IMG/VR virus record: IMGVR_UViG_3300011445_000036
Location: 1-43,910 of that record
DNA from: a virus
Direction: 5' to 3' (one strand)
DNA: 43,910 nt
The notes under the pieces are model-generated. The model had not been told where the DNA came from, made no database searches, and was given only the letters and a program-made list of their open reading frames with translations. A program made the position numbers and the translations under genes. Every line of letters begins with the position of its first letter. Within the stretch, counting starts at the first letter, position 1. This document shows, one piece after another, positions 12,557 through 36,731 of this stretch.

Positions 12557-13513
12557 ATGAAATTCTTTACACCCAAACAGATTTATGAAGAATTAAATAA
12601 GTCTGTTATTGGACAACATGAAGCTAAATTATTGTTATCAAATGTTGGTATGATGATACAACAACGTTTTTATCAAAAATATCTGACATTTGGTAAACAA
12701 GTTCCAATGATTCATAAGACTGTTACTTTGTTAGCAGGCGATAGTGGTACAGGTAAAACTACTATTGTTAGAACCTTAGCTAAAATCATAAATGCACCTC
12801 TATTAGAAATTAATACCAATACGTTATCAGCAGAGGGTTGGCACGGAGAAAATCTATCTGATTTATTAAAAAAGTTTATTAAAACTAAAGCCAATCCTGA
12901 AGATTTAGCAGAAACCCCTGAAGGAACTGTTACAAGAACCATTGTATTCTTAGATGAATTTGATAAGGTTTTAATTGATTTACATGATTCAAATCAAGGT
13001 GCACATAATCGCGCTATATTAAATAACTTTCTTAAAGTTGTTGAGGATTGTTCAGCAATGGGTGATTTTAATTGGATTCTTGGCGGGTCATTTAATATTC
13101 ATAGACAAGAACTTAAAGAACCTAGTAAAACCATTGGGTTTAATAAGCTTACCGAAATGTCAGAAAAAGAATTTAATAAAGAATTCTTGATTGAAAAAGG
13201 ATTGCCTGAAGAACTTGCTGGTCGGATCACGGGTTTAGCTGAACTTAAAAAGCTTACTAAAGTTGATTTAATTAACATACTTAAATTACCATATGGCTAT
13301 ATTAATCAATATAAACAATTAGCATTACAATTTAATATGCAATTTGAAGTAACAGAGGCTTTATTAGATAGTATTGCAGATGAAGTATTAAATTCATCTC
13401 AAGGTGCAAGAGCTTTACAAGATGTAATTTATAAACATTTCGAAGTACAATTATTTAACTTGGAGTTTAAAGAAGATGAGCACAAAGAAGAGTCATACTT
13501 GCCTACTCGTTGA
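12557..13513 (+). CDS. ClpX/HslU-like AAA+ unfoldase
   Basis: 318 residues. The family start FTPKQIYEELNKSVIGQHEAK corresponds to ClpX/HslU '...VIGQ..AK'. Walker A is GDSGTGKT (61-68). The pore-loop region SAEGWHGENL corresponds to ClpX 'TEAGYVGEDV'. Walker B is IVFLDEFDKV (129-138). An arginine-finger/sensor region (ELAGRITGLAELKKLT) and sensor 2 (GARALQDVI) follow. It lacks the ClpX zinc domain and has no room for the HslU I-domain between the Walker motifs, so it is a minimal core. The next gene, overlapping by 38 bases, encodes an HslV-like peptidase, so the two likely form an ATP-dependent protease. Confidence 0.85.
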   Translation: MKFFTPKQIYEELNKSVIGQHEAKLLLSNVGMMIQQRFYQKYLTFGKQVPMIHKTVTLLAGDSGTGKTTIVRTLAKIINAPLLEINTNTLSAEGWHGENLSDLLKKFIKTKANPEDLAETPEGTVTRTIVFLDEFDKVLIDLHDSNQGAHNRAILNNFLKVVEDCSAMGDFNWILGGSFNIHRQELKEPSKTIGFNKLTEMSEKEFNKEFLIEKGLPEELAGRITGLAELKKLTKVDLINILKLPYGYINQYKQLALQFNMQFEVTEALLDSIADEVLNSSQGARALQDVIYKHFEVQLFNLEFKEDEHKEESYLPTR

Positions 13514-14105
13514 TCGTAGTCCAGCAGGCAAATTAATATTTGCTTCTGACAGACGACAAAGTTGGGGTATGCATTTAGCTCAAAAAACTCCACGTCCTAA
13601 GACTGTTAAACGTCATGGTATTGTATTTGCAGGTACAGGTGATAGTTATATTTGTGATTTAATATGTGAATTATTACCTATTCCAAAGCAAAGAAAGACT
13701 GAAAGTGCTTTTGATTTTGCGCATGGAGCATTATGGGAATCTGTTATACGATTATTAGATAAAAAAGGTTTATTAGATGAAAAACAATTTTGTTTACCAA
13801 GAGAATATAAATTTAGTGAAGCAATTATTTTAATAGGTATACAACAAACATTATTTGAATTAGAGATTTCTAAACGTGGTATATCAATGGGTATAATTGA
13901 TACTCCATATGCTCATGGGTGTGGAGGAGCATATGCTTTAGGGGCATTAATTGCATTTAAAGATTATAATTGTTTTCCACATCATATAGTGCGGTTTATT
14001 CCCCAAGAACATGAATTAATTAGTAAAATGAAATTAGCTGTACAAATTGCAGGTAACTTAAGTCCAGGTTGTGATGAGGAAGTAGACATAGTAAAAGGTG
14101 ACTAA
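13476..14105 (+). CDS. HslV/proteasome-beta-like Ntn hydrolase
   Basis: 209 residues matching the proteasome-beta/HslV pattern: TCLLVDRS at residues 8-15, then KLIFASDRRQS (Asp25 in the place of the catalytic-site Asp17), PKTVKRHGIVFAGTGD (Lys42 or Lys45 as Lys33), GCGGAYALGALIA (148-160), and KMKLAVQIAGNLSPGCDEEVDIV near the end. The best candidate for the nucleophilic Thr is Thr8, so seven residues would have to be removed. HslV normally exposes Thr after Met alone. The gene overlaps the ClpX/HslU-like gene by 38 bases, so they are probably co-translated partners. The peptidase assignment is good; activity is unproven. Confidence 0.78.
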   Translation: MSTKKSHTCLLVDRSPAGKLIFASDRRQSWGMHLAQKTPRPKTVKRHGIVFAGTGDSYICDLICELLPIPKQRKTESAFDFAHGALWESVIRLLDKKGLLDEKQFCLPREYKFSEAIILIGIQQTLFELEISKRGISMGIIDTPYAHGCGGAYALGALIAFKDYNCFPHHIVRFIPQEHELISKMKLAVQIAGNLSPGCDEEVDIVKGD

Positions 14106-14388: not shown

Positions 14389-15270
14389 ATGTTAAATAAA
14401 GGAAAACGATTTTTAAATGAATTCATTAACTTACGAGAGATAAATGTAAGTGAATTTTCATTTAAAATTAAAGAATTTTTAATTAAATATAAAGTTAACT
14501 GGAATGAAGATTGGGTCGCTGGGGGTTTATTAACAGAATTCTTTGGTTGTAGTTGGGTATTACAGATTAATCCTAATGCTACTAAACACGTTGTAATTGG
14601 AAAAGGGGTATTATATGATAGTGGTGGATATAGTTTAAAACATTCACAACATATGAAGGATATGTTTTTTGATAGAAACGGTGCATTACTAACAGTAGCT
14701 CATTGTATTAATACAGGCGATTCAGGAATTATATTTTTAGCTAATAATATGCTAAATAATCATATAGTTCCCGGAATGATTTTAAATGATATTTTTAATA
14801 AAGAAAAAGTATTAATTGATAATACAGATGCCGAAGGACGTATTGGATTAGCCCATTGTCTTGGATTGGCTAATAAATTAGGATATAAAAAGGCCTTAAC
14901 TATTGCTACGCTTACCGGAGCAGCAGTACAGGTAACATCAGAACGCGTAGCTGCATTAGTACATTCTAATGAACCCAAAGATTTAATTAAAGTAATGTCG
15001 GCACGAGTCGATAAGAAACTACAATTACATCCTGCTCCGTATAATAAAGTCTTTGATAGAGCAGTGAATTCATCTGTTATTGGGGCTACCATAACTAATT
15101 TATCTAATAGAGATGGCGCAGGATCATCTACAGCCTTTAGTTTTCTTAAACGCTTTTTTAAAGGTCATTTGATTCATTTAGATATGGCTGCAATGATGAA
15201 AACCGCAAACGGAAATGGTTTAGTATGGGGATTAAAAGAAGTTAAGTTTCTCACAAGTTTATTAAGGTAG
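14389..15270 (+). CDS. M17 leucyl aminopeptidase (PepA-like), catalytic domain only
   Basis: 293 residues with the complete M17 active site: GKGVLYDSGG (Lys72, Asp77), FFDRNGA (Asp95) and NTDAEGR (Asp147, Glu149, Arg151), then ATLTGAA and a C-terminal GAGSSTAFSFLKRFF...HLDMA segment equivalent to PepA's ligand-lining region. These residues bind the two metal ions that cleave N-terminal amino acids from peptides. The large N-terminal domain of bacterial PepA (about 170 residues) is reduced to about 65 residues. It sits behind the HslUV-like pair and could finish degradation of its peptides. PepA also binds DNA in other systems, an alternative role. Confidence 0.85.
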   Translation: MLNKGKRFLNEFINLREINVSEFSFKIKEFLIKYKVNWNEDWVAGGLLTEFFGCSWVLQINPNATKHVVIGKGVLYDSGGYSLKHSQHMKDMFFDRNGALLTVAHCINTGDSGIIFLANNMLNNHIVPGMILNDIFNKEKVLIDNTDAEGRIGLAHCLGLANKLGYKKALTIATLTGAAVQVTSERVAALVHSNEPKDLIKVMSARVDKKLQLHPAPYNKVFDRAVNSSVIGATITNLSNRDGAGSSTAFSFLKRFFKGHLIHLDMAAMMKTANGNGLVWGLKEVKFLTSLLR

Positions 15271-15273
15271 TGT

Positions 15274-15876
15274 ATGAAAGAAGAAACTAAACTATTATAT
15301 AATCAATTTATGCTCTTTGTTAAAGAGGGAGTCCATGACGTACGTTCTCGTAACCATTTCTCATGGGCTAAAAATGATTATACCGGTTTAAATTCTCGTA
15401 ATAAATACATGCAAAAATTAAAACGATTAGTGAAAATAGGTAAACTTGAAGAAGGTAAAACTCCACAAGTACAGGCTTATTTAAACGATAAAGGAAATCC
15501 CCGCCTTGAGATGCCTCCTATCTATACTTATTTTACTAAATGGGGCTATTATGCGGATTTAGCACACGAATTAATGCATTATTATCGTCAAGCTAATAAT
15601 TTAGATTTTGAAGAGAAATTATTTTATTTACTATTTTATAAAGATCGTGACTTATATGATCTCGAAGAAATTATTGCTGAATTTGGAGCTATGTTATTAT
15701 TAAAAAAAGCTAAAATTAAATTTGATAAGGAACTTAATTTTTTTTATATTGAAGAATATTTAAAACAATTTCCATCTATATGGCCTAAATCCTGGCTTAT
15801 GTATTTCTTAGTTTGGCATGCAGAACGAACTTGTAAGGAGATTCATAAATGTTATTTAACAAACAAACGATTCTAA
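15274..15876 (+). CDS. ArdC-like zincin metallopeptidase domain protein
   Basis: 200 residues. HELMH at 98-102, within YADLAHELMHYYRQ, is the HExxH zinc site, and LEEIIAEFGAMLL (about 130-142, Glu136) supplies the likely third ligand. This arrangement, preceded by an N-terminal segment with NDYTGLNSRNKYM, resembles ArdC antirestriction proteins, whose C-terminal domain is a zincin and whose N-terminal part binds single-stranded DNA. It lies 3 bases after the aminopeptidase gene. It may protect phage DNA or degrade a host defence protein. Substrate unknown. Confidence 0.68.
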   Translation: MKEETKLLYNQFMLFVKEGVHDVRSRNHFSWAKNDYTGLNSRNKYMQKLKRLVKIGKLEEGKTPQVQAYLNDKGNPRLEMPPIYTYFTKWGYYADLAHELMHYYRQANNLDFEEKLFYLLFYKDRDLYDLEEIIAEFGAMLLLKKAKIKFDKELNFFYIEEYLKQFPSIWPKSWLMYFLVWHAERTCKEIHKCYLTNKRF

Positions 15877-17089: not shown

Positions 17090-17243
17090 TGAACGATCAC
17101 TATTAAATATAAATATACGTGCATTAGAACAATCATTAATTAAATTAAAAAAAACTAGATTAGAGCTTAATAATGCAATCATAAATAAAGAATATATACT
17201 AAAAATGAAACGAACAAAACTCAGGAATCTAGCTAATGTCTGA
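17082..17243 (+). CDS. Small basic coiled-coil protein, 53 aa
   Basis: 53 residues starting at an ATG inside the end of the YopX gene and ending 7 bases into the helicase gene. Strongly basic and helical with leucine/isoleucine spacing (ALEQSLIKLKKTRLELNNAII), so a coiled coil is likely. Overlaps on both sides support it. Function unknown. A helicase-loader role would fit position but is unproven. Confidence 0.5.
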   Translation: MFNERSLLNINIRALEQSLIKLKKTRLELNNAIINKEYILKMKRTKLRNLANV

Positions 17244-18474
17244 TTATTTATTACTTAAAACATTTCTTAAAAAAGATTACTTTAATAAGTATCGTTCTTT
17301 TATTAAGAAAGGCGCACCAGCAGAAGAAACAGAGACTATTCTATACGATATTGCTGCATATTTTGAAACATTCCCTGATAAAACAGAAGTAGAAATAGAT
17401 TCATTAAAAACCTTCTGCACTCAAATGAGACATCCTGATTGGAATCTTAGAGATTGTGAGCATTATAATCAAATATTTAAAACTCTTTCAGAAACCGAAG
17501 AAACAGATGATATAGATGTATTATTAGATCATTTTGAGAAAGAATACTTTTATAATAAAGTAAATCTATTAGGCCAAACTTTAGAACCTATAGAAAAGGT
17601 TAAAGAAGAAGTTGTTAAATATGACGATTGTAAGCGACGTATCTTAGTAGAGAATCCTGCTGATACACCTAATGATTTTGATACTATATTTAATCCTTTA
17701 ATTAATGGAGACGGGCTACAATGGCGACTTAATTGTTTAACTAATTCACAAGGTCGATTATGTAAAGGTGATTTTGGTATTCTTGGTGCCTATATTAATA
17801 CTGGTAAGACGAGATTTATTGCTAGTGAAGCTACATTTATGGCGCCACAAATAGAAGAAGGTAAGTATATATTATGGTTTAATAATGAAGGTGCTGATAG
17901 AAAAGTACAGACGTGTGTATGGTGCGCAGCACTAAATAAACCTATTCATGAAATCATGGCTAATAAAGAAGCTTCTATAGAAGCTTATACAAAAGCCATG
18001 GGTGGAGATATAGATAAAATAAGATTCTTATCTGCAGTTGGGAAAAGTACATCTGATATTGAAAAGATTATAGAAAAGTATCCACCTGGATTAATTATAT
18101 TTGACCAGTTAGATCATATTAGTGGATTTGATAAGAAATCAAGAAAAGACGTAGAACGATTAAAGCACTTATATTATTGGGCACGAGAACTCTCTGTCAA
18201 ACATTGTCCGGTTATTGGTGTTACACAAGCAGACGCTAGTACCATGCCTACGGATAACAATGGTAATGTATATCCTAAGAAATATATTCATATGAGACAA
18301 TTAAATGGTAGTAAGATCGATAAACAAGCAAATTGTGATTTTATTATTACCATAGGACTAGACCAATCTAATCCTAATATTAGAGGAATTCATTTAGCTA
18401 AGACAAAAAATGCGGTAGGGGATTTAAAGTGGGATGTAATTTTTGACGGTGAACGGTGTCGATATAATGATTAA
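17236..18474 (+). CDS. DnaB-like replicative helicase (RecA-fold ATPase)
   Basis: 412 residues. An N-terminal helical domain (1-150) is followed by a RecA-type core with the Walker A variant GAYINTGKT (184-192) and Walker B LIIFDQLDHI (286-295, Asp290). Later come CPVIGVTQAD (sensor strand with terminal Gln) and a C-terminal QANCDFIITIGLD segment with RGIHLAKTKNA, where superfamily 4 helicases place the arginine finger and DNA-binding loops. Unlike T7 gp4, helicase and primase are separate genes here (primase at 26806). It would unwind DNA ahead of the polymerase encoded just downstream. Confidence 0.82.
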   Translation: MSDYLLLKTFLKKDYFNKYRSFIKKGAPAEETETILYDIAAYFETFPDKTEVEIDSLKTFCTQMRHPDWNLRDCEHYNQIFKTLSETEETDDIDVLLDHFEKEYFYNKVNLLGQTLEPIEKVKEEVVKYDDCKRRILVENPADTPNDFDTIFNPLINGDGLQWRLNCLTNSQGRLCKGDFGILGAYINTGKTRFIASEATFMAPQIEEGKYILWFNNEGADRKVQTCVWCAALNKPIHEIMANKEASIEAYTKAMGGDIDKIRFLSAVGKSTSDIEKIIEKYPPGLIIFDQLDHISGFDKKSRKDVERLKHLYYWARELSVKHCPVIGVTQADASTMPTDNNGNVYPKKYIHMRQLNGSKIDKQANCDFIITIGLDQSNPNIRGIHLAKTKNAVGDLKWDVIFDGERCRYND

Positions 18475-18618: not shown

Positions 18619-20583
18619 ATGACATATTGTATTTTAGATCTCGAAACATCAATTTACAAATCCTATAAAAGAAAGGCTAATCCTTTTGATCCTAGGAATA
18701 AGATTGTATTATATGGTATAAAGGTAGCGAATTCGCTACCTTTAACTGAACCCACTATAAAGTGGTCATTATTGGAGAATGTTACACATATTATTGGGCA
18801 TAATTTAAAATTTGACTTACAATATCTTTGGTTAGAGCCTACATTTAGAGCTTGGATTAAAAATGGAGGCAAGATTTGGGATACTCAAGTAGTAGAATAT
18901 ATCCTTACTGACCAAGAACATAAATATCCTAGTCTAGATAATTGTTCTAAAAAGTATGGTGGTACACTAAAAGATTCGTATATACAAGAATGCTGGGAAC
19001 AAGGTATTCAAACAGAAGATATAGATCAAGATAAGTTGAAAGAATATCTTAAACATGATTTATTAAATACAGAACTATTGTTTCAAAATCAACTACGAGA
19101 AGTGAGAGAACGAGATCTTATGCCTTTAGTTCAGTCTCAAATGGATGATTTACTATGTTTAACTGAGATGGAACGAAATGGATTGAAGACTAATATGAAT
19201 TTTTGTAATTTAGAGATTCAACGACTTAATGCATCTCGACCTTCCATTAATACACATTTACCATCTGCATTAGTTGGGGTGTTTAATTATGAATCTAATA
19301 AACATATGTCTGCTTATTTGTTTGGCGGTAATATACAATGGAAAACTCTGAAAGAACAAAAAATACGAAAGACCGGCAAAAGTATCGGTGAGCCTTACAA
19401 TACGTATACAACTTATACCCATGAATTTCCGAAATTAACTGAACCTAAATTAGAATGGAAAACTAAACATAAAACTGTTTATAAAGTAGATGAAGTGGTA
19501 TTATCTAAAATTGCAAAAAAGTCTGCTAAACTGAAAGATTTTTGTAAAGCAGTATTAGATAATAGAGAAATAGATAAACAAATTAATACTTATTATTTAC
19601 CCATTATTGAGTTAACCCATAGACATGATGGTATTTTACATTTTGAACTTAATCAAGTCTCTACTAATACAGGCCGATTAAGTAGCAAGAATCCTAATTG
19701 TCAAAATTGGCCTAAAGAATCTACTGCATTAGTTAAAAAGGCGTGTGAATCTCGATTAGGAACGTTAATATCAATTGATATGTCACAACTTGAAGTAGTA
19801 GTTCAAGCCTTATTATCTAATGATGTTAATATGTTAGAGGATATTCGCAAAGGAGTAGATTTCCACTGTAAACGATTAGCTTATATTGTTAAGAAACCTT
19901 ATGATGAAGTATATAAATTATGTAAGATAGATAAAGACCCGTATTGGGAACAATTACGGTCTATGACTAAGGCCTTTAGTTTCCAAAGGTCATACGGTGC
20001 AGGAGCTGATAAAATAGCCTCCTCAACAGGTTTAAGTCGAGATGAGGCTTTAGCTCTCATTGAGGCTGAAATCCGCTTGTACCCCTCTGTAGAGGCCTTT
20101 AATCGGGGCAATTGTGACCTAGTCATAAAGGGTTCTAAACCTACAGATAAACGTAGTGAAAATGGGTTACCGTTAAAAAGAGGCACTTATACGTCAGCCT
20201 CTGGTCGTAGATATCACTTTTATGAGCAAGAATCCTTACCATCGATGCAAGCTAAAGGCATGTTAACCTCATTTAAGCCTACTCAAATGAAGAATTACCC
20301 GATTCAGGGCTTTGCGGGCGATATTATGGCCTTAGTAAGGGGTAAATTATTTCGTGCATTTTTTGATAATTCTGCTATACTTCTATTAAATACTGTACAT
20401 GATGATGTCTTGTTAGATAGTACAGACGCAAAACTTGCGGAGAATATTGCGGAGATTAAGAGAATATTAGATAGTATACCAAGTTACTTAAACGATTACT
20501 TTAATATTGATTGTCTAGTTAAGTTTGGGTATGATATTAAAGTAGGTCAAAATTGGCTTGAAATGGAGACCTATGAGAACTAA
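18619..20583 (+). CDS. Family A DNA polymerase with 3'-5' exonuclease
   Basis: 654 residues. The N-terminal DnaQ-type exonuclease shows ILDLETS (Asp7, Glu9), GHNLKFDLQYL, and YLKHDLLNTELLF. The palm contains motif A ISIDMSQLEVVVQALL, motif B LRSMTKAFSFQRSYGAG, and motif C NTVHDDVLLD. All catalytic acids are present, so it should be an active proofreading replicase. It lacks a Pol I 5' nuclease domain, but a separate 5'-3' exonuclease lies at 29652. It follows the helicase gene in the same operon. Confidence 0.93.
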   Translation: MTYCILDLETSIYKSYKRKANPFDPRNKIVLYGIKVANSLPLTEPTIKWSLLENVTHIIGHNLKFDLQYLWLEPTFRAWIKNGGKIWDTQVVEYILTDQEHKYPSLDNCSKKYGGTLKDSYIQECWEQGIQTEDIDQDKLKEYLKHDLLNTELLFQNQLREVRERDLMPLVQSQMDDLLCLTEMERNGLKTNMNFCNLEIQRLNASRPSINTHLPSALVGVFNYESNKHMSAYLFGGNIQWKTLKEQKIRKTGKSIGEPYNTYTTYTHEFPKLTEPKLEWKTKHKTVYKVDEVVLSKIAKKSAKLKDFCKAVLDNREIDKQINTYYLPIIELTHRHDGILHFELNQVSTNTGRLSSKNPNCQNWPKESTALVKKACESRLGTLISIDMSQLEVVVQALLSNDVNMLEDIRKGVDFHCKRLAYIVKKPYDEVYKLCKIDKDPYWEQLRSMTKAFSFQRSYGAGADKIASSTGLSRDEALALIEAEIRLYPSVEAFNRGNCDLVIKGSKPTDKRSENGLPLKRGTYTSASGRRYHFYEQESLPSMQAKGMLTSFKPTQMKNYPIQGFAGDIMALVRGKLFRAFFDNSAILLLNTVHDDVLLDSTDAKLAENIAEIKRILDSIPSYLNDYFNIDCLVKFGYDIKVGQNWLEMETYEN

Positions 20584-22961: not shown

Positions 22962-24911
22962 ATGAATTTAGGGGAAGTACTAAAAGCAGATGTTTCTAAG
23001 CAGCGTGCTAAAGAGATGTCTGTTAATGAATACTTGGAACTAATTAAAACTAATAAGGAAGTCTTATTATCACCTGCGGGTAGATTACTTAAAGCTATTG
23101 GTGAGCCTGAGTTAGTTGATACATCAAAAGATCCTCGTTTAAGTCGTATATTTTCTAATCGTATTATTAAACGTTATGCTGTATTTGACGACTTCTTCGG
23201 CATAGAAGAAGCTATTGAACGTATTGTTGACTTCTTAAAACATTCAGAACAAGGTTTAGAAGAATCTAAACAAGTATTGTATTTATTAGGTGCCGTAGGT
23301 ACGGCTAAGTCTTCATTAGCGGATAGGCTTAAACAATTAATGGAAAAAGAACCATTCTATACCGTGGCCTTTATTGATGCTAAAGGGAGAGTCGTTCAAT
23401 CTCCGGTATTAGATCATCCATTATCGTTATTTGCTTCTATTGATGCAAAAAACGCATTAAAAAAACAATTTGGTGTCTTAGATCAACATTTCAGAGTACC
23501 TCCATCTGGATGGTTAATTAAACGTATTCAAGAAGTTGAAGGCGATTTAACAAGATTTAAAGTATTAAAATTACATCCCTCTAATCACCTACAGCGTGCT
23601 ATTGGTAGAACAGAAGCCGGGGATGAAAATACCCAAGATGTCTCTATTCTGGTTGGTAAAATGGATATTCGTAAATTAGAATTGTTTGCTCAGAACGATC
23701 CTGATTCCTATTTATATAGTGGCATGCTATGTAAAGCTAACCAAGGTATCGGTGAATTCGTAGAAATGTTTAAAGCATCTCTGCCAGTCCTTAATCCATT
23801 GCTGACCGCTACTCAAGAACATAAATATCAAGGTACCGAACCTATTGGCGAGTTACCGTTTGATGGTGTAATTCTTGCGCATAGTAATGAATCTGAATGG
23901 CAGAAATTTAAGAATTCTAAAACTAATGAAGCTATTTTAGATCGTATTTATTTGGTAAAAGTACCGTATAACTTACGACCAACTGAAGAAGTACAGATTT
24001 ATCGTAAACTTCTTAATAATTCATTATTAAAAGATTCACCTGTTGCGCCTCGTACATTGAAAATGCTAGCTGATTTCTGTGTACAAAGTCGTATGATTAA
24101 TAATGAACACGTTAATACGATGACGAAATTACGTGTTTATGATGGTGAGAATGTTAAAGAAAAAGATGCTCGGGCTAAGCCTTTGTTAGAATATAAACAA
24201 ATGGCAGGGCTGGATGAAGGTATGGATGGTCTAGGTACGCGATTTGCATTTAAAGTGTTATCTAAAACCTTTAACTACGACCTAACTGAAGTTGCTGCTA
24301 ATCCTGTGCACCTATTGCACGTGCTAGATAAACATGTTAAAGCTGAACAATTTTCTAAAGATAAAGAGGCCTCTTTATTAAGTTTTATTGAAAGTGAACT
24401 TAAACCTCAATATACTGAATTCTTAACTAAAGAGATTCAAACGGCATATATTGAATCTTATAGTGAATATGGTCAAAATGCCTTCGACCAATACATTAAG
24501 TTAGCTGAATTGTGGTTAGCAGATGAAGACTTTGTGAATCATGATACCGGCACAATCATGAATCGATTAGCTATTGATAAAGAGTTAGATAAAATTGAGC
24601 GACCTGCTGGGATTATTAATCATAAGGATTTTAGACAAGAAGTGGTCACTTTCTGTTTAAGACATAGGGCTTCTAATAGTAATCAAAACCCCAAATGGAC
24701 TGCTTATGAAAAGCTTAAAGAAGTTATTGAGAAAAAACTCTTTAATTCTGCTGAAGATTTATTGCCTGTCATTAGTTTTGGTGCTAAAAAATCAGAAGAT
24801 GATGCTAAAAAACATAAAGCTTTTGTGGATAGAATGGTTGACTTGGGCTATACTGAGAAACAAGTGAGATTACTTGTTGAATACTATCAACGTGTTCGTA
24901 GGAGTGAATAA
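22962..24911 (+). CDS. prkA: PrkA-family serine protein kinase / AAA protein
   Basis: 649 residues, full length compared with E. coli YeaG (about 644). The family segments are all present: SVNEYLELIKTNKEVLLSPAGRLLKAIGEPE at the N-terminus, YAVFDDFFGIEEAIERIVDFLKHSEQG, Walker A as GAVGTAKSS (110-118), PPSGWLIKRIQEVEGD, and DRIYLVKVPYNLRPTEEVQIY in the AAA core, plus the C-terminal kinase-like region ending VRRSE. In bacteria PrkA acts with YeaH and SpoVR/YcgB in starvation and stationary-phase responses. Here yeaH and spoVR homologues follow in the same operon. Walker A has Ala-Val and Thr-Ala where bacterial proteins usually have Pro-Val-Gly-Gly. Confidence 0.93.
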   Translation: MNLGEVLKADVSKQRAKEMSVNEYLELIKTNKEVLLSPAGRLLKAIGEPELVDTSKDPRLSRIFSNRIIKRYAVFDDFFGIEEAIERIVDFLKHSEQGLEESKQVLYLLGAVGTAKSSLADRLKQLMEKEPFYTVAFIDAKGRVVQSPVLDHPLSLFASIDAKNALKKQFGVLDQHFRVPPSGWLIKRIQEVEGDLTRFKVLKLHPSNHLQRAIGRTEAGDENTQDVSILVGKMDIRKLELFAQNDPDSYLYSGMLCKANQGIGEFVEMFKASLPVLNPLLTATQEHKYQGTEPIGELPFDGVILAHSNESEWQKFKNSKTNEAILDRIYLVKVPYNLRPTEEVQIYRKLLNNSLLKDSPVAPRTLKMLADFCVQSRMINNEHVNTMTKLRVYDGENVKEKDARAKPLLEYKQMAGLDEGMDGLGTRFAFKVLSKTFNYDLTEVAANPVHLLHVLDKHVKAEQFSKDKEASLLSFIESELKPQYTEFLTKEIQTAYIESYSEYGQNAFDQYIKLAELWLADEDFVNHDTGTIMNRLAIDKELDKIERPAGIINHKDFRQEVVTFCLRHRASNSNQNPKWTAYEKLKEVIEKKLFNSAEDLLPVISFGAKKSEDDAKKHKAFVDRMVDLGYTEKQVRLLVEYYQRVRRSE

Positions 24912-25105
24912 TGAAATTTATCTTTGAAAAAGAAGTAAATCATGGAGATTATAGTACCACTACGCACGTAGAGCAAACAGTGAGTCAATCTTCTAATGCA
25001 CATAATATTGTAAATAGTTTGTTACATTTTGCAACAAATGCTGGATATTCATACGAGTTTTTATTGAAAGGTGCTAAATCTTTGACTAAAGACTTACCTG
25101 AATAG
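24911..25105 (+). CDS. Hypothetical protein, 64 aa
   Basis: 64 residues coupled to prkA (TAATG overlap). Polar N-terminus rich in Thr and Ser, then a helix (NIVNSLLHFATNAGYSYEFLL). Function unknown. The tight coupling could indicate a PrkA partner. Confidence 0.55.
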   Translation: MKFIFEKEVNHGDYSTTTHVEQTVSQSSNAHNIVNSLLHFATNAGYSYEFLLKGAKSLTKDLPE

Positions 25106-25114
25106 GAGCGAGTA

Positions 25115-25261
25115 ATGATATTTAATATGACAACTGAAGACCTTGAGCGGATCAAAAAAATAAAACACAATTTCTATTTGTGGGCTAAAGCTAATCCTAG
25201 TAAGTTTAGAGAGTGGGTTTTAGCAATATTACATAAGCCAAGAATATTTCATGATGAATAA
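25115..25261 (+). CDS. Hypothetical protein, 48 aa
   Basis: 48 residues, basic and helical, with two Trp residues (FYLWAKANPSKFREWVLAILH). TAGGAG lies before the ATG. It is the last gene before the structured leader of the yeaH homologue. Function unknown. Confidence 0.52.
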   Translation: MIFNMTTEDLERIKKIKHNFYLWAKANPSKFREWVLAILHKPRIFHDE

Positions 25262-25558
25262 GCCCAGGGTACTTAGCGTTAAAAGCGCGTGCGGCTAAAT
25301 GAGTACCTTGGCATTAACGTAGTCTTCGTAAGGACTTAAACTTTACGCGGAGTTGTATATCTAAACTAGTTAGAAAATAGATATGATAACTCATTATTGA
25401 TAGAATTTAACTAGTAATAGAGGAAACGCCTGCGGGCGTGGAACTCTTCCTTACTAGTTAACTGCTCCGCCCGCCTCTCCTTCGGGTGTCGAGCAAACGG
25501 GAGTACGGCAGTCTTCCGACCCAAACCAAAACTGCCACTAATTCTAGTAAGGAGTGTT
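25262..25558 (+). promoter_or_regulatory. Structured leader with a possible translational switch, upstream of yeaH homologue
   Basis: A 297-base gap without a gene in an otherwise gapless operon. Seen pairings: CCAGGGTACT/AGTACCTTGG (25264-25273 with 25302-25311) around TTAGC/GCTAA; AGTCTT/AAGGACT (about 25320-25336); TATATCTA/TAGATATG (about 25355-25385); AACTAGTAA (25409-25417) with TTACTAGTT (25451-25459) around AGAG/CTCT and ACGCC/GGCGT; GGCAGT/ACTGCC (25507-25536). TCCTTACTAG (25448-25457) is also a perfect 10-base complement of CTAGTAAGGA (25544-25553), which contains the ribosome binding site. The two pairings exclude each other. No ligand or protein class is recognised. Confidence 0.62.
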
Positions 25559-26800
25559 ATGGCTATTATTAATCGTAGTAAACAACAGCAAAACAAAGCC
25601 GCTGGCAATCGTCAACGGTTCTTAGATCGATATAATCGACAAATCCAAAAGAAACTTAAAGATTATTTTAAACGTAAATCTATTACTGATACAGGTAATG
25701 GTCAACATACTATTACTATAGATAAAAATGACGTAGGCGAACCAACATTTAATAATAATCCGCATACAGGCACTAAACCTCGGATATTTCCTGGTAATAA
25801 ATCCTATTCCAAAGGTGATTGGATTCAATCACCTGACGGTTCAGGTGGCGATGGAAAAGGCAATAAAGGTCATGGTGGAACAGATTCTGAAGATGATTTT
25901 TTATTTCATTTAAATCGTGAAGAATTTATGCAATATTTGTTTAAAGATTTAGAATTACCGGATTATATTTTAAAACAATTAGTTGAATCCGAAGACTGGA
26001 AATATAAAAAGAAAGGGATTGTTCGACATGGCTTACCTAATTCGGTGCATGTAATTAAATCCCTAGAAGCAGCAAATATGCGTAAGATAGCATCAAGAGC
26101 TGCGTTAGAGGCCGAAATTGCTTTATTAGATCCTGAGAATGATAAAGATAAGATTGAAGAATTAAAGAAACAAAAAGATAAAATTCCTTGGATTGATGAT
26201 TTTGATTTACGATATAAAACCTTAGTTAAAGATCCTGTGCCTATAAGTAAAGCTGTAATGGTCTTATTATTAGATGTATCAAGTTCTATTACTGAAAAGA
26301 TGAAAGATCGTGCTAAACGATTCTTTTATCTAGTCTATTTATTTTTAACTACTCAATATCGTCATGTTGATATAGTCTTTTTAATTCATACTACTAATTG
26401 TATCGAAGTCACCGAAGAAGAGTTTTTTAATACGAGAGTTACTGGTGGGACAGAATTTCTTAATTCATTTGAAAAAGTAGAAGAAATCTTAACATCTCGA
26501 TATGATACACAGTCTTGGAATGTTTATTTAACTCAAGTTTCGGATGGGGACGTAAGTTTTGAAGACGGTACGAAAAGTGCTATCTTTTTAAATGATAAAC
26601 TATTACCAATAATCCAATTTTATGCTTATTGTAATGTAACCATGGATGATGTAGTTACATTTGGAGTTTGGTATGGCTATATACGAAAACTATTGTTACA
26701 TACTGCAAATGATAAAAAAGCAAGATTTTGTATATTAGATTCAAATAAAAGTGTCTTTAGAGCACTTGAAGATTTATTTAAACATAATTTAGCGGACTAA
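25559..26800 (+). CDS. YeaH/YhbH-family protein (DUF444, von Willebrand A-like)
   Basis: 413 residues, close in length to E. coli YeaH (427). NRQRFLDRYNRQI near the N-terminus, a Gly-rich linker (SGGDGKGNKGHGG, about 95-107), FLFHLNREEFMQYLFKDLELP, and a VWA-type metal site DVSSS (239-243) in AVMVLLLDVSSSITEKMKDRAKRFFYL. Then HTTNCIEVTEEEFF, VTGGTEF, QVSDGD and LLPIIQFYAYCNV follow the family in order. YeaH homologues are genetic partners of PrkA. The gene is preceded by the structured leader and an AAGGAG site. Confidence 0.93.
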   Translation: MAIINRSKQQQNKAAGNRQRFLDRYNRQIQKKLKDYFKRKSITDTGNGQHTITIDKNDVGEPTFNNNPHTGTKPRIFPGNKSYSKGDWIQSPDGSGGDGKGNKGHGGTDSEDDFLFHLNREEFMQYLFKDLELPDYILKQLVESEDWKYKKKGIVRHGLPNSVHVIKSLEAANMRKIASRAALEAEIALLDPENDKDKIEELKKQKDKIPWIDDFDLRYKTLVKDPVPISKAVMVLLLDVSSSITEKMKDRAKRFFYLVYLFLTTQYRHVDIVFLIHTTNCIEVTEEEFFNTRVTGGTEFLNSFEKVEEILTSRYDTQSWNVYLTQVSDGDVSFEDGTKSAIFLNDKLLPIIQFYAYCNVTMDDVVTFGVWYGYIRKLLLHTANDKKARFCILDSNKSVFRALEDLFKHNLAD

Positions 26801-26805
26801 TTACT

Positions 26806-27546
26806 ATGTTAATTAAATCAGGATTACCATGTCCGAATTGTACTTCATCCGATGCTTTGGCTAAGTATGAAAATGGTACTTATTGTTTCTCTTGTAAATA
26901 CTCTACATTAGAAATTATTAAAACATTAAAAAATCAGAATCAAGAGAATTTAACATTAACACCCAACCAAGCCGACTGGGTTTCTTTAGATTCACATAAA
27001 CATATTTCTGCCTATACGTTCTTAAAATCTTATCATATAAATCAACAACTTATCGATAAATACCAACTCATGTGGTCTCCTCAGACGAATCGATTAGTAT
27101 TGCCGTTTATTTATAAAACTAAATGTGTAGGGGGACAATTACGTTCACTCGACAAACGTCCCATGAGAAAATATTTAAATGTTGGAGATACCGGAATATG
27201 GAATCCTAATAACTTATTAGCGACTATAGTCGCTAACTGGGCAATGACGACTATAGTCGTCGTAGAAGATATTATCTCTGCTATACGAATTAATGAAATC
27301 TTACCAGCCGTTGCTTTATGCGGCACTAAAACAGATAATTCTACTAAGGAAACCTTAAGGAAACTAGGTAAAACAATTATTTTATGGTTAGATTCTGATA
27401 TTCCGGGACAAAATGCTTGCAAAAAGTTAAAATGTAGTTTACAATTAACTAATGATGTAAAAGTAATAAAAACTGAATTAGATCCGAAATGTTATAAAAA
27501 GGCAGATTTAGAATCTTATTTAATTGCTGCTACTGTAGGTAAATAA
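26806..27546 (+). CDS. DNA primase, zinc-binding plus Toprim domain
   Basis: 246 residues. The zinc-binding domain has CPNC (9-12) and CFSC (27-30), like T7 gp4 primase. The Toprim core has VVVEDIISAIR (Glu154) and ILWLDSDIPGQ (Asp196, Asp198). The middle segment RLVLPFIYKTKCVGGQLRSLD is the typical RNA polymerase-type strand pair. It would make primers for the DnaB-like helicase/PolA replisome. It sits between the yeaH and spoVR homologues and overlaps spoVR by one base. Confidence 0.87.
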   Translation: MLIKSGLPCPNCTSSDALAKYENGTYCFSCKYSTLEIIKTLKNQNQENLTLTPNQADWVSLDSHKHISAYTFLKSYHINQQLIDKYQLMWSPQTNRLVLPFIYKTKCVGGQLRSLDKRPMRKYLNVGDTGIWNPNNLLATIVANWAMTTIVVVEDIISAIRINEILPAVALCGTKTDNSTKETLRKLGKTIILWLDSDIPGQNACKKLKCSLQLTNDVKVIKTELDPKCYKKADLESYLIAATVGK

Positions 27547-29066
27547 TGACATTATTATATACTTCTGAAGAATGGTCAGAAGAGATTATTGAGAACTTAT
27601 GGGATGCCGTAGAAGAACGCGGTAAGTTTTATGGTCTTAATTATTATCCTCCTCAAATAGAAATTATTTCTGCTACTCAAATGTTAGATAATTATAGTTC
27701 TCATGGTTTACCTGTTATTTATGACCATTGGAGTTTTGGTAAATCTTTTATTGCTAATCAACAAGCATATGAAAAAGGTTATCAGGGATTAGCGTTTGAA
27801 ATTGTTATTAATACTAATCCTAGTATTTGTTATATTATGGAATCAAATACTACGACTATGCAATTATTGGTGCTCGCTCATGCAGCAATAGGTCATAGTA
27901 CTTTCTTTAAAAACAACTACTTATTTAAAGAATGGACGGATGCTTCAACAATTATTGAATTCTGTCTCTATGCCAAACGATTTATTAAGAAATGTGAACA
28001 ATTATACGGACGTCAATTAGTAGAATCTACTTTAGACAGTGCCCATTCATTACAATATTTTGGTGTTGATAAATATAAACGTGTTCATACGAAAACAAAA
28101 AAACAACAAAAAGAATATAATGAACGATTGGTAGACGAAAAACGTAAATTAGTTCATGAATTATACAAAGATGAATTAAGTCATGTTACTAATCCACCAG
28201 ACTTAGATGTCTATGAAACTGAGTTAGAGGTGGGTGCGTATTATACTAATGAAGCCGATCCAGATGAAAATTTATTAGAGTTTTTAAAACAAAAATCAAC
28301 AATTTTACGTCCTTGGCAGAAAGAGGTTATTAATATAATACAATATCTAGCTCAATATTTTTATCCTCAAATGCAAACTCAAGTTACTAATGAAGGTTTT
28401 GCGACCTTTTGGCATTATACAATAATGACTGATTTATATGATATGGGGAAAATCTCTGAAAGTTCTTATCTTCAATTTTTACATAGCCATAGTTCAGTGA
28501 TTTATCAACCCGCTGCATTTCATTATAGTAATTATTATAAACAATCCTTTCCTAACCGTCATTATTCAGGAATTAATCCGTATGCGTTAGGTTTTGCTAT
28601 TTATCGAGATATTCGGAGAATCTGTGAGAACCCTACTGATGAAGATAAAAAGTTGTTTCCTAATTTAATTGGTAAAAACTGGTTAGATGAAGTTAAATAT
28701 GCTATGGAGAATTTTAATGATTCAGGTTTTATACTTCAGTATCTGTCGCCTAAAGTAGTTCGAGATTTACAATTAATGGTTACTTCTGCCGCTGTGCCAC
28801 AAGCGATGTATGGTTCAAATGTGGTAGAAGTCACGCAAGTACATGATGATAATGACTTTTTAATGATTAGAAAACAATTATCTGAAAATTATAATTTGAC
28901 AAATCGCTTACCACAAATTATAATTAAAGAGAGTCGAGAACCGGCGCATAGAGTAACATTACAACATTTAAAAACTTACGATCAAGAATTAGATGTCAAG
29001 TCTGCAATGGATACAATCCATAAATTTAAGTTTTTATGGGGCAAAGGTGAAGTTAGTTTACATTAA
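27546..29066 (+). CDS. spoVR: SpoVR/YcgB-family protein
   Basis: 506 residues against about 510 for E. coli YcgB. Hallmark blocks: IYDHWSFGKSF (58-68), GLAFEIVINTNPSICYIMESNTTTMQLLVLAHAAIGHSTFFKNNYLF (81-127, with His112 and His117), LRPWQKEVINIIQYLAQYFYPQMQTQVTNEGFATFWHY, NPYALGFAIYRDI, and VTLQHLKTYDQELD near the end. Family members act with PrkA and YeaH in bacterial stress physiology; their biochemical activity is not settled. The glutamates and histidines in the central block could bind metal. Confidence 0.93.
   Translation: MTLLYTSEEWSEEIIENLWDAVEERGKFYGLNYYPPQIEIISATQMLDNYSSHGLPVIYDHWSFGKSFIANQQAYEKGYQGLAFEIVINTNPSICYIMESNTTTMQLLVLAHAAIGHSTFFKNNYLFKEWTDASTIIEFCLYAKRFIKKCEQLYGRQLVESTLDSAHSLQYFGVDKYKRVHTKTKKQQKEYNERLVDEKRKLVHELYKDELSHVTNPPDLDVYETELEVGAYYTNEADPDENLLEFLKQKSTILRPWQKEVINIIQYLAQYFYPQMQTQVTNEGFATFWHYTIMTDLYDMGKISESSYLQFLHSHSSVIYQPAAFHYSNYYKQSFPNRHYSGINPYALGFAIYRDIRRICENPTDEDKKLFPNLIGKNWLDEVKYAMENFNDSGFILQYLSPKVVRDLQLMVTSAAVPQAMYGSNVVEVTQVHDDNDFLMIRKQLSENYNLTNRLPQIIIKESREPAHRVTLQHLKTYDQELDVKSAMDTIHKFKFLWGKGEVSLH
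28896..28924 (+). promoter_or_regulatory. Perfect-consensus sigma-70 promoter inside spoVR
   Basis: TTGACA (28896-28901), exactly 17 bases, TATAAT (28919-28924); all 12 hexamer positions match. It would give extra transcripts of the SSB-like and exonuclease genes, which start at 29082 and 29652. Confidence 0.62.
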
Positions 29067-29081
29067 CGTTCGGAGGTTACA

Positions 29082-29651
29082 ATGGCATTAACAGTGTTAG
29101 CAGTAAATAGAGATAAACAAATCGCTAAGAAAGATGGTGGTACATATCCGGGTACGGAATTAGTCTTACAATCTGCTAGTGGGAAACCAATGGTTAAAGC
29201 TTTACATAAGACGATATTAGATAATAATAAAGCTTTAGCAGGTGTCGTAGCTGAATTACAACCTGGGGATGTTATTGAATTAATTACTGAAAAATCTAAA
29301 GATGGTAAGTTCAATAATGTAAAAGCTATTGTAAAAGCTACAGATGACGATGAGTCTTTTAGAGTTGCGATTACTAAACATGATGGAGTACAGGCTACGT
29401 CTGCGGGACAAGCGCAGACAGTTTCTACTTTTAAATCATTTAAAGGTTCCGATAATACCGGTATGCAGGTAGGGAACGCGTTAAATGTGGCTGGGGCACT
29501 CCTAAGTGGTAAAAAAGAATCGTCAGTCCAAGCATTAGAAGACATGGCTATGGCTGTTTTACGATTAAGCAATAGTCTTAAAGCTAGATTAGAAGCCGGT
29601 GAATTTGATCCTAAACCGACTAAATCTAAATTTGATGATATAGATGTATAA
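29082..29651 (+). CDS. Single-stranded DNA-binding protein, OB-fold type
   Basis: 189 residues. The N-terminal half reads like an OB fold (TYPGTELVLQSASGKPMVKALHKTIL, ELQPGDVIELITEKSKDGKFNNVKAIVKA). A flexible middle follows, and the C-terminus is short and acidic (KFDDIDV), the usual SSB partner-binding tail. Position between the replication genes and a 5'-3' exonuclease supports the role. GGAGG precedes the ATG. The family is not named with certainty. Confidence 0.65.
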   Translation: MALTVLAVNRDKQIAKKDGGTYPGTELVLQSASGKPMVKALHKTILDNNKALAGVVAELQPGDVIELITEKSKDGKFNNVKAIVKATDDDESFRVAITKHDGVQATSAGQAQTVSTFKSFKGSDNTGMQVGNALNVAGALLSGKKESSVQALEDMAMAVLRLSNSLKARLEAGEFDPKPTKSKFDDIDV

Positions 29652-30536
29652 ATGACAGCTCTTATAGATGCTGATATTATTGTATATCGGGCAGGTTTTG
29701 CTGCACAAACCACGCAGTATCATTTAGTTGTAGATGATAATCTTATTAAGACATTTGATTTACACACTAAAAAAGCTGACGTAATAGCTTTTAAAGTTAA
29801 GAATGCTCCTGAGTCTGAATTAATAAGTGAATTATTAGTTCAGCCAGTTGCGTTTGCTAAACAATATGTAGATAAAATAGTGCAATTCATTAAGAATTCT
29901 GTAACTCCTTCTGAAATGAGGTTGTTTCTTACAGCAAATGATAAGTCTAATTATCGCTTTAAAATCGCCAAAACACCTGGTAGGGCGGGTCTGGGGTATA
30001 AGGCCGGTAGGGCATCTAAACCGGAGCATTATGAGGCTTTACGTGAGTATTTAGTAACAAAATATAAGGCAGAAGTCATATACGGTCAAGAAGCGGATGA
30101 TGCATTAGGTATAGAACAATATAAAGACTTTGCAGAAGCAAGAGATGAGCCTGAAAATTATCGAAATGATTGTTATTTAGAATATGCTCTAAAAACCATC
30201 ATTTGTTCGATTGATAAAGACCTAAAAATGATCCCAGGCTGTCATTTTAACATAGTTACAGGGGATAGAGAGTTTATTACAGAATTTGAAGGATATAAAA
30301 ACTTTTGTAATCAACTACTTATAGGGGATAATGCAGATAATATTCCCGGAATCCGCGGAATTGGTAAAAAAAGAGCCGCGAATCTGTTAAAAGACGCTAA
30401 AACTGAAAAAGAATTGCTTGATATAGTTAAAGGTATGTACTATACTAAATTTAAAGAAGATGCGGATAGACGATTATTGGAGATAGGGCAGTTACTATGG
30501 ATTCGAAGACATGAGGGGGAATTATGGCATTTCTAA
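29652..30536 (+). CDS. 5'-3' exonuclease / flap endonuclease (FEN family)
   Basis: 294 residues. Metal-binding acids in LIDADIIVYR (Asp6, Asp8), EADDALG (147-153) and SIDKDLKMIPG (186-196). GDNADNIPGIRGIGKKRAANLL (225-246) is the DNA-binding helix-3-turn-helix of FEN and T5/T7 exonucleases. It would remove primers and degrade host DNA, supplying the 5' nuclease missing from the polymerase. Starts directly after the SSB-like stop. Confidence 0.9.
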   Translation: MTALIDADIIVYRAGFAAQTTQYHLVVDDNLIKTFDLHTKKADVIAFKVKNAPESELISELLVQPVAFAKQYVDKIVQFIKNSVTPSEMRLFLTANDKSNYRFKIAKTPGRAGLGYKAGRASKPEHYEALREYLVTKYKAEVIYGQEADDALGIEQYKDFAEARDEPENYRNDCYLEYALKTIICSIDKDLKMIPGCHFNIVTGDREFITEFEGYKNFCNQLLIGDNADNIPGIRGIGKKRAANLLKDAKTEKELLDIVKGMYYTKFKEDADRRLLEIGQLLWIRRHEGELWHF

Positions 30537-34142: not shown

Positions 34143-34799
34143 ATGAGTCTATCGAAATGGGTATTGCCTATTGCTGCTATTATCTTAGGTCTAGTATTAA
34201 TCTCTGGGCGTATTGATATTAATTTACAGCATAACCTTCATTTACCTAAACAAATGGTAAATGAGCCTATTATTGAAACTCATATGGGCGTATTCGGTAT
34301 TGCGAATATCTATGATGTATATATACCGGTAGTATTTAATCATGAAATGAGTCTCGTTAGTATCAAACAATTAGTCAATAATGCCTCGGTTTTAGATACT
34401 GTTCGATTTCATATTGCGGGAGACGGTGGCGGTGTTGATATGGTATTAGGTCTTATTAATACTGTGAAAGCTACGAAAGCCCATACTGTTATGATTGTAG
34501 AACGTCCTAGTTATTCTGGAGCTGCTTTCTTGGCTGTATCAGGTGATGAATTAATCATGAGACCTTTTACATATTTAATGTTTCATACTAGTAGCGCAAT
34601 GAATGTTAATTGTGCGGATCAAAAAGGAATGGATCGAGCAGAAACAGCAGACGCTGTCTGTAAAAAAATGATTTCTAATCATATGTGGAACTTAGAAAAG
34701 TTAATTGATTCTTTTATTAAAGTATCTGCTGAAGAAAAGGCGGCCATTAAAGCAGGATTTACAGTTGTTATTCCTGCTGAAGTATTAGATAAACGCTAG
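34143..34799 (+). CDS. Membrane-anchored ClpP-fold (SppA/ClpP-like) protein
   Basis: 218 residues. One N-terminal membrane helix (6-21) is followed by a ClpP/crotonase-type domain: VRFHIAGDGGGVDMVLGLINTVKATKAHTVMIVE, then RPSYSGAAFLAVSGDELIMRP (Ser125 in the nucleophile position) and YLMFHTSS (His148 in the catalytic His position). The domain would be periplasmic. A membrane-linked serine peptidase cutting envelope proteins or signal-peptide remnants is one reading. A similar protein is encoded on the opposite strand at 36222. The acidic member of the triad is not obvious. Confidence 0.7.
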   Translation: MSLSKWVLPIAAIILGLVLISGRIDINLQHNLHLPKQMVNEPIIETHMGVFGIANIYDVYIPVVFNHEMSLVSIKQLVNNASVLDTVRFHIAGDGGGVDMVLGLINTVKATKAHTVMIVERPSYSGAAFLAVSGDELIMRPFTYLMFHTSSAMNVNCADQKGMDRAETADAVCKKMISNHMWNLEKLIDSFIKVSAEEKAAIKAGFTVVIPAEVLDKR

Positions 34800-35416: not shown

Positions 35417-36235
35417 GTGTGGGTACTTCTGCTCATTGGTTCTATTATTATAGAAGTTGGACTAACCTGCCTAATACCTCACTCTAAGGGGTATTTCTTT
35501 AATCTTATCGAAGCCCATAATTCCACCCTTATTTGGATAGGATTAGCTTATTATTTCGGTAATATCTTCGTTTTAGAGCTATTTCAGACCTTTAAACCTT
35601 ATTCAATTATACGATATGCCTTAGAACGCCGTTTAAAGCTCACCACGACGTTTAATTCTATACCCCCTACCTACACCTCTATTAGTAACTTTGCGCAGCG
35701 TATACAAGAGGATATTAAGCTTTATTTACAGAATAGTATCTCCGTCTATACAGAATATGCTATTTCGGGGTTAATTGTAGTCTATCTATTAATAACTCAT
35801 CATACTGAGTATATTCTTATAGGATCAGCTATCCTATATAGTCTACTCTTTGTGGCCATTGCCTATCTGTTTAAACCACGACTCGTCAAGACTGAAAAGA
35901 CTATGCAACAGAATGAAGCACAATTTAGATTAGATATTAATAACCTAGGATTTGGATTATTACCTGAAGTTCTTTTGAGCAATAAAAAAGCCGCTAATGT
36001 GCGGCTATCATATGGTATTTTTAATAAAACTCAAACAGCTATAATGTTGGCTTTACCTTATATCGTATTACTACCTTTCTACCTTAAGAGTACGATTACT
36101 TTAGGTTATTTGATGGAAATTGCCACAGTGTTTGATTTGTTAGTATTAAATATGGCGATTATTATTAATCTATTTCCTTTCCTAGCACAGGCTAAGGCTT
36201 CTAAAGAACGTATTGATGAGCTTAATCATAAGTAA
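35417..36235 (+). CDS. SbmA/BacA-like transporter-fold membrane protein
   Basis: 272 residues from a GTG start with GGGAG upstream. Several hydrophobic helices. Between them are NFAQRIQEDIKLYLQNS (the 'QRIQED' signature of SbmA/BacA and related ABC transmembrane domains) and EKTMQQNEAQFRLDINNLG (like the 'E..FR..L' coupling helix). The C-terminus reads LPFYLKSTITLGYLMEIATVFDLL...AQAKASKERIDEL, similar in layout to SbmA. There is no ATP-binding domain here or next door, as expected for SbmA. SbmA imports antimicrobial peptides. The phage role is unknown. The gene overlaps the convergent ClpP-like gene by 14 bases. Confidence 0.55.
   Translation: MWVLLLIGSIIIEVGLTCLIPHSKGYFFNLIEAHNSTLIWIGLAYYFGNIFVLELFQTFKPYSIIRYALERRLKLTTTFNSIPPTYTSISNFAQRIQEDIKLYLQNSISVYTEYAISGLIVVYLLITHHTEYILIGSAILYSLLFVAIAYLFKPRLVKTEKTMQQNEAQFRLDINNLGFGLLPEVLLSNKKAANVRLSYGIFNKTQTAIMLALPYIVLLPFYLKSTITLGYLMEIATVFDLLVLNMAIIINLFPFLAQAKASKERIDELNHK
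35981..36006 (-). terminator. Rho-independent terminator of the right-hand late operon
   Basis: The minus strand reads AGCCGC-ACATTA-GCGGCT followed by TTTTTTATT: a perfect 6-bp GC-rich stem, 6-base loop and U-run. It lies antisense inside the SbmA-like gene, about 215 bases past the end of the last minus-strand gene (36222). Confidence 0.85.
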
Positions 36236-36731
36236 CGTATACGTCTTCTCCTGCTAAGACATGATCCCAAATATATTGATCGACATAATCTCCACAGTAG
36301 CGTAAAAAGGCTTTGGTATCGTCTATATACGCTGCTCCAGTAAAGCTATCTCTAATCATATGAAACATCATGAATGCACCTGGTCTCATAATCCACTTAT
36401 CCGCTGAACAAGCGGCAATTGCATGCATACTATAATTTCCATCTTTTAATATAAATATAACTTGTTTATGTCCCTGAGCTTTAAAATTTTCAACTGAATC
36501 TATAAATGTTCTGCCCATGCTGACTAATCCGCCAGTACCAGTACTATATATTGTTAGTTGTTTCGCCTTACATACATTGATAGCATGAATCACAGCATCC
36601 CATTCAGGACTATAATTACGTTGGAATTTAGTCGGTAAAGTGAGATTACAGGCAGAGGTATTAGCTGAGGCCACAGTACCTGCCAATAATAGACCTATAA
36701 AAAGTAAAATACTAAAAACGATTGCTTTCAT
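36222..36731 (-). CDS. Secreted ClpP-fold protein
   Basis: 169 residues. A signal peptide (KAIVFSILLFIGLLLAGTVASA) with a likely cleavage after Ala24. The mature domain has LTIYSTGTGGLVSMGRTFIDSV, then KDGNYSMHAIAACSADKWIMRP (Ser101 at the ClpP nucleophile position) and FMMFHMIRDS (His124). This matches the layout of the protein at 34143, so both are ClpP/SppA-type folds sent to the envelope. It is the last gene of the minus-strand late operon and may act with virion entry or lysis. Confidence 0.68.
   Translation of the reverse strand: MKAIVFSILLFIGLLLAGTVASANTSACNLTLPTKFQRNYSPEWDAVIHAINVCKAKQLTIYSTGTGGLVSMGRTFIDSVENFKAQGHKQVIFILKDGNYSMHAIAACSADKWIMRPGAFMMFHMIRDSFTGAAYIDDTKAFLRYCGDYVDQYIWDHVLAGEDVYVTYD

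Follow-up and report, generated by a model that had tools for sequence, protein, structure and literature searches.

A PrkA-DUF444-SpoVR gene trio beside the replication genes of a podovirus-like phage and its relatives

Introduction

Pairs of AAA+ motors and von Willebrand factor A (vWA) proteins, among them CbbQ-CbbO, NorQ-NorD, RavA-ViaA and CobS-CobT, remodel dedicated target proteins. The bacterial proteins PrkA and YeaH (DUF444) share this AAA-vWA make-up, and by that likeness SpoVR, the third member of their set, would be the dedicated partner. In Rhizobium etli the three genes form one operon whose prkA gene is strongly induced by (p)ppGpp (guanosine penta- and tetraphosphate; PMC3188799), and the role in starvation attached to them derives from work on yeaG and yeaH of Escherichia coli, not from phage (PMC4664914). 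Here we describe a phage copy of this trio in IMG/VR virus record IMGVR_UViG_3300011445_000036, a stretch of 43,910 bases (referred to below as the window) whose genes run off both ends.

Compared with the bacterial prkA-yhbH/yeaH-spoVR operon (yeaGH and ycgB in E. coli, and the R. etli operon), the window trio has the same families, order, lengths and key residues. It is unlike the operon in that phage copies mostly form a separate deep lineage within a replication gene cluster and that the window copy is interrupted by a primase gene. The trio, or most of it, also occurs in Thermus phages (phiYS40, TMA, phiLo, MN1 and Lalka), whose PrkA is only about 26% identical and whose gene order is DUF444-SpoVR-PrkA, and in the huge phages LR745206, LR756502, LR756504 and LR756511, which differ from the window in gene context. 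The Ralstonia jumbo phage RsoM2USA encodes SpoVR (ORF28) and PrkA (ORF30) near each other on one strand, but it is a 343.8 kb myovirus in which the genes were listed separately and not as a system (PMC8504454). Phage CobS-CobT pairs, such as gp41-gp42 of Vibrio phage ICP2, likewise place an AAA+ motor and a vWA partner beside primase, helicase and family A DNA polymerase (PolA) genes; they belong to other AAA and vWA families and lack SpoVR.

Results

Intact genes of three known families

A preliminary description of the window, made from its letters, had reported complete PrkA, YeaH and SpoVR homologues in order on one strand, with the phage primase between yeaH and spoVR and two small open reading frames (ORFs) after prkA; all of this agreed exactly with the ORF list. 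The prkA gene (22962..24911, plus strand) encodes a PrkA/YeaG homologue of 649 amino acids, with an AAA+ domain at residues 19-384 and the PrkA C-terminal domain at 387-641. It is followed by yeaH (25559..26800, plus strand), encoding a DUF444 protein of 413 amino acids with a C-terminal vWA domain, then by a primase of the DnaG/Toprim type (26806..27546, plus strand; 246 amino acids; Pfam and PHROG), and by spoVR (27546..29066, plus strand), encoding a SpoVR/YcgB homologue of 506 amino acids with a predicted gluzincin-like fold. Pfam and PHROG profiles matched the three proteins nearly from end to end, which excludes a mismatch with the proposed families: PrkA gave near full-length matches to PF08298 (E 1e-136) and PF06798 (1e-59) and fell into PHROG 22605, and nearly the full lengths of DUF444 and SpoVR were covered by PF04285 (E 7e-109) and PF04293 (E 5e-129), respectively. 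The NCBIfam model PRK15455, 'PrkA family serine protein kinase', scored 941 bits against a cut-off of 576, and the NCBIfam equivalog models for DUF444 and SpoVR were matched below their cut-offs. Weak matches of PrkA to bpMoxR and AAA_5 in Pfam, and to RavA and Lon, were also recorded.

Residues required for function in the bacterial protein are present as well. Mutation of K116 (the Walker A lysine), R232 or K426 each abolishes the function of E. coli YeaG (PMC4664914), and an alignment showed the equivalents of all three to be conserved in the window PrkA and in the aligned sequences of its near group, with differences in the distant contigs L015 and L017. The phage trio is real, intact and conserved, a form of an already known bacterial module rather than a novel type of system.

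Distribution among phages

Relatives of PrkA are encoded in 245 IMG/VR stretches. Counts from the PrkA scan were limited to IMG/VR loci followed by 5.5 kb or more of sequence, and those from the SpoVR scan to loci with enough upstream sequence. The whole ordered trio was present at 57 of the 58 PrkA-scan loci, with L020, a host segment resembling Enterobacter, as the one exception, and, after clustering at 90%, in every non-redundant PrkA cluster (28/28); both partners were present at all 67 SpoVR-scan loci (67/67). The trio, whose spread the preliminary description had left to a search of phage genomes, is therefore widespread; this co-occurrence bears only indirectly on whether the three proteins act together. 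Carriers include T4-like large phages and podoviruses of about 45 kb, in which the trio lies between PolA and the 5'-exonuclease. A T4-type major capsid protein was matched in 12 of 38 records tested and a terminase profile in 18 of 40, so that many of the records are clearly phages, short fragments being too small to judge.

Searches of named-phage records with the window proteins detected 16 with PrkA, 16 with DUF444 and 5 with SpoVR, the carriers being the five Thermus phages named above, four metagenomic phages of 595-642 kb and Enterobacter phage LAU1. Annotation and comparison together place all three genes in phiYS40, phiLo and MN1. Upon inspection, the yeaG and yeaH genes of LAU1 lie at the very start of its record (L011:1-3308) and match E. 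coli chromosomal DNA at 84% identity; they are probably host flank, which may have been included in the deposited phage genome. The trio genes of L020, which fall in the same cluster, are likely host DNA too. A defence-system reading was set aside, since PADLOC returned no defence-system match for the trio. Overall, the literature that we found understates by a wide margin how common the trio is in phages, and probably also how old it is there.

Descent and selection

Bacterial sampling did not go beyond the 80 best matches, and the sampled clade is gamma/betaproteobacterial. In the concatenated tree of the trio, nine podoviruses stood on one side of a branch with 98-99% support, and most large-phage trios formed further clades outside the sampled bacteria. 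Exceptions were L019 and L030, which fell inside the bacterial clade, and L002, L152 and L153, which were its neighbours; the trios on the viral-labelled contigs L019 and L030 may have been transferred recently or may be host DNA. The SpoVR tree (97%) and, weakly, the PrkA tree (76%) agree with the concatenated one; the DUF444 tree does not resolve. By this placement phage trios are mostly old phage lineages. Long branches lead to the window, L005 and L006, and a tree uniting the window and the bacteria in one clade was not rejected (approximately unbiased test, p 0.16); with that qualification, an old phage origin of the window copy is favoured, though not proven, over recent transfer from a bacterium. 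The ratio of nonsynonymous to synonymous substitution rates was about 0.04-0.13 for all three genes in unsaturated phage pairs, drawn mostly from large phages and not from the window, which shows strong purifying selection on the whole trio in those pairs. The nearest bacterial homologues come from Proteobacteria, which form no endospores.

Predicted folds of SpoVR and DUF444

The window SpoVR retains the residues that are invariant in its family, including H112, H117 and E283. These belong to a motif, H112-A-x-x-G-H117 ... N-E283-G-x-A, that is invariant across 62 sequences except at Ala113, and this position, where the HExxH motif has its catalytic glutamate, is alanine in 60 of the 62. We take the NEGxA element to recall the zinc-ligand signature of M1 peptidases, and the H-x4-H spacing to recall the HELLGH motif of dipeptidyl peptidase III. 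The AlphaFold model (predicted local distance difference test score, pLDDT, 86) was compared with known structures using VIA, and the top rows were metallopeptidases of the M1, M32, M3, ACE or similar types, with Z of 5-11.4 (best 3o0y, Z 11.4), values whose weight is lowered by the largely helical fold. The gluzincins (M1, M32, ACE and M3) may be like the SpoVR model in fold, and M1 is like it in NEGxA, but they have HExxH in place of HAxxGH and give no sequence-profile match. Ordinary peptidase chemistry is not expected of SpoVR because the catalytic glutamate is replaced by alanine. A zincin-like protein with a metal-binding site is our working hypothesis for SpoVR rather than an assignment; no sequence relative of it was found in the PDB. 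We know of no earlier biochemical hypothesis for SpoVR, and the predicted zincin-like site offers one that can be tested.

For DUF444, the metal-ion-dependent adhesion site (MIDAS) is intact (D239, S241, S243, T298 and D329), and its columns do not vary across 63 sequences from phages and bacteria, the window among them. The AlphaFold model (pLDDT 79.7) has a vWA fold, with VIA Z up to 18.6, and structure matches of this domain include NorD (9qhe), the Rea1 MIDAS domain and Rpn10. Matches of DUF444 to syntaxin in the PDB were dismissed as coiled-coil noise.

Genomic surroundings

Pfam, PHROG and family scans placed helicase, PolA, primase, 5'-exonuclease, RusA-like and 3'-exonuclease genes on the plus strand of the window; the minus strand carries structural genes at either end (TerL, portal and tail lysozyme). 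Ahead of the trio lie a DnaB-like replicative helicase (17236..18474, plus strand; phrog_19) and PolA (18619..20583, plus strand; PF00476, phrog_17). Behind it come a possible single-stranded DNA-binding protein (SSB; 29082..29651, plus strand), so labelled from its position and acidic C-terminus as no family matched, and, directly after that ORF, the 5'-3' exonuclease (29652..30536, plus strand; PF01367, phrog_107).

We compared these genes with those of relatives sharing non-trio genes with the window, some of them fragments and not all with every gene. The shared order is primase, helicase, ClpP-like, PolA, deoxyribosyltransferase, PrkA, DUF444, SpoVR, SSB-like, 5'-exonuclease, RusA-like and 3'-exonuclease. 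The preliminary description had taken interleaving with replication genes to mean phage control; the arrangement stood, being common to related phages, and its position shows shared phage regulation and no more, whereas a primase inside the trio is seen in the window alone (a 3'-exonuclease takes that place in L005, and in most relatives yeaH adjoins spoVR) and the SSB is a positional label. Because it is peculiar to the window, the primase interleaving carries no functional message.

The window PolA is closest to those of Autographiviridae and Zobellviridae podoviruses (about 32-36% identity). It is about 33% identical to those of ICP2 and VP41s3, with similar gene layouts; the layout resembles in particular that of the Zobellviridae phage VP41s3, and the PolA tree does not place the window. 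The contig is a phage, apparently related to Zobellviridae-type podoviruses. A PolA tree of phages with and without the trio contained two very long branches and did not resolve a single gain from several gains.

The SpoVR search found trio-less relatives including L008, L010, Paso, ParKuw1, ICP2 and VP41s3. In L008 (L008:1987-6834) a ClpX/HslU-like AAA gene lies between PolA and the 5'-exonuclease, the slot taken by the trio elsewhere, and in ICP2 the CobT-CobS pair (a vWA protein and a MoxR AAA) occupies L258:5358-8231 beside the replication genes. Matches to CobS-like genes occur in 496 phage records and to CobT-like genes in 40; trio phages lack CobT and ICP2 lacks SpoVR, cases too few to test replacement of one set by the other in the same slot.

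Peptidase genes and other features

Several peptidase genes accompany the trio in the window: an M17 aminopeptidase-like gene recurrent in trio podoviruses (14389..15270, plus strand; PF00883, 1e-35), a zincin-like metallopeptidase (15274-15876), a ClpP-like protein with an N-terminal hydrophobic segment (34143..34799, plus strand), from a family that likewise recurs in trio podoviruses, and a second ClpP-like protein with a hydrophobic N-terminus (36222-36731). These M17-like, two ClpP-like and zincin-like genes are an unusually rich set for a small phage. At 12557-14105 a ClpX/HslU-like AAA ATPase and, after it, an HslV-like peptidase may form a phage HslUV pair. An SbmA/BacA-like membrane protein (35417-36235) adjoins a ClpP-like gene, and the same neighbours are found in L099.

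The two small ORFs after prkA encode 64 amino acids (24911..25105, plus strand; overlapping the prkA stop and without a family match) and 48 amino acids (25115..25261, plus strand). Between them and yeaH lies a structured non-coding stretch of about 300 nucleotides (25262..25558, plus strand), recognized by its fold stability (z -3.5; 0 of 200 shuffles equally stable) and containing a hairpin at 25404-25462 (z -5.9). Searches of this gap found no Rfam family and no similar DNA, and a 20-mer match in L278 was judged non-homologous. A 14-nucleotide near-repeat, CTAATYCTAGTAAG, occurs at 25191 and 25538. Promoter-like sites were no more numerous than in shuffled sequence. Neither the ORF list nor the family scans of this possibly incomplete record showed a gene for the single-subunit phage RNA polymerase by which Autographiviridae are recognized, though no search aimed at that enzyme was made. 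A tRNA-Met (CAT) gene lies at 8193-8267 on the minus strand.

Discussion

We give an even chance to the proposal that the phage carries an old, phage-adapted PrkA-YeaH-SpoVR module, a machine driven by ATP that remodels proteins and probably acts on host physiology. PrkA would be an AAA+ motor related to the MoxR/AAA-vWA type, and DUF444 would be its adaptor, binding the target through the MIDAS of its vWA domain. SpoVR might then be the dedicated partner (a client or an effector), folded like a zincin to bind metal but minus the usual catalytic glutamate. Co-transcription with the replication genes would put the action early or in the middle of infection, and if host physiology is the target, a slow-growing or starved cell might still support phage replication. 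By analogy with bacteria, such host support under slow growth is a plausible leading role for the phage trio. In favour of the machine stand the constant presence of the whole trio, the low substitution-rate ratios, the retained PrkA and MIDAS residues, the vWA fold of DUF444, the weak matches of PrkA to bpMoxR, RavA and Lon, the metallopeptidases that head the structure matches of SpoVR, and the CobS-CobT pair of the related phage ICP2.

Several observations weigh against this proposal. In vitro, PrkA of Bacillus anthracis had negligible activity as a kinase or as a protease, and the biochemistry of the family is unsettled (PMC13001217); starved E. coli without yeaG showed increased metabolic activity, which makes the direction of any host support uncertain. 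The likeness of SpoVR to gluzincins comes solely from structure comparison: Foldseek by itself returned nothing significant, and an hhalign profile comparison with M1 peptidases was negative, so that we rejected SpoVR as their sequence relative. Finally, we found in the literature no experiment on the trio in any phage.

An alternative that we consider unlikely is protein turnover, in which the trio and the phage peptidases (ClpP-like, M17 and HslV-like) would unfold and recycle host proteins into amino acids for virions, with SpoVR perhaps itself a peptidase. A ClpP- or M17-family gene was found in 11 of 12 trio podoviruses and in none of the 9 relatives without the trio (Fisher p 3e-5, uncorrected for descent), and this association keeps a proteolytic role alive; the window also encodes its ClpX/HslU-like AAA and HslV-like peptidase, and the SpoVR model resembles metallopeptidases. 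Yet common descent gives phages of a clade the same genes, the two sets are not matched for clade or for contig completeness, the catalytic glutamate of HExxH is alanine in nearly all SpoVR sequences, and no proteolysis was seen with B. anthracis PrkA (PMC13001217).

Action on the phage replisome, through remodelling of primase, helicase, polymerase or SSB, seems to us quite improbable: it would suit the place of the podovirus trio between PolA and the SSB and 5'-exonuclease, and the primase within the window trio, but the trio also occurs in bacteria and, with different surroundings, in T4-like and other large phages, and the primase position is unique to the window phage. We are still more doubtful of a chaperone for virion assembly, for which the AAA-vWA architecture of PrkA and DUF444 has a precedent in MoxR-vWA pairs, a chaperone role having been proposed for such pairs in jumbo phages and, in an archaeal two-tailed virus, reported (PMC7824862); against it, the structural genes occupy the strand opposite the trio and its neighbouring replication genes, and bacteria, which also have it, make no virions. 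That the trio is host DNA misjoined to a phage genome, or a set of passenger genes picked up recently, is true of some records (LAU1, with host-like yeaGH at its start, and L020) but barely credible for the window, where phage genes lie on both sides of the trio and inside it and the arrangement is syntenic with other phages, which led us to reject contamination, and where most phage trios fall outside the clade of the bacteria sampled.

Returning to the remodelling machine, we advance a broader form of it tentatively, as possible but well short of an even chance: PrkA-DUF444-SpoVR may be an ancient, phage-held module of AAA+ motor, vWA adaptor and metal-site protein, interchangeable with CobS-CobT-type pairs beside replication genes and with SpoVR as a zincin fold minus the catalytic glutamate, so that the viral 'sporulation' gene would belong to a machine that remodels proteins during infection, in phages whose hosts do not sporulate. 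Viral spoVR has been classed among auxiliary genes for 'sporulation' (PMC8940887), yet each viral SpoVR locus with enough flanking sequence has prkA and yeaH. The bacterial trio is widely conserved and its biochemistry unsolved, and the compact phage copy, present once in a small phage with few partners and a growth phenotype that could be scored, and kept whole across diverse phages, offers a direct way in.

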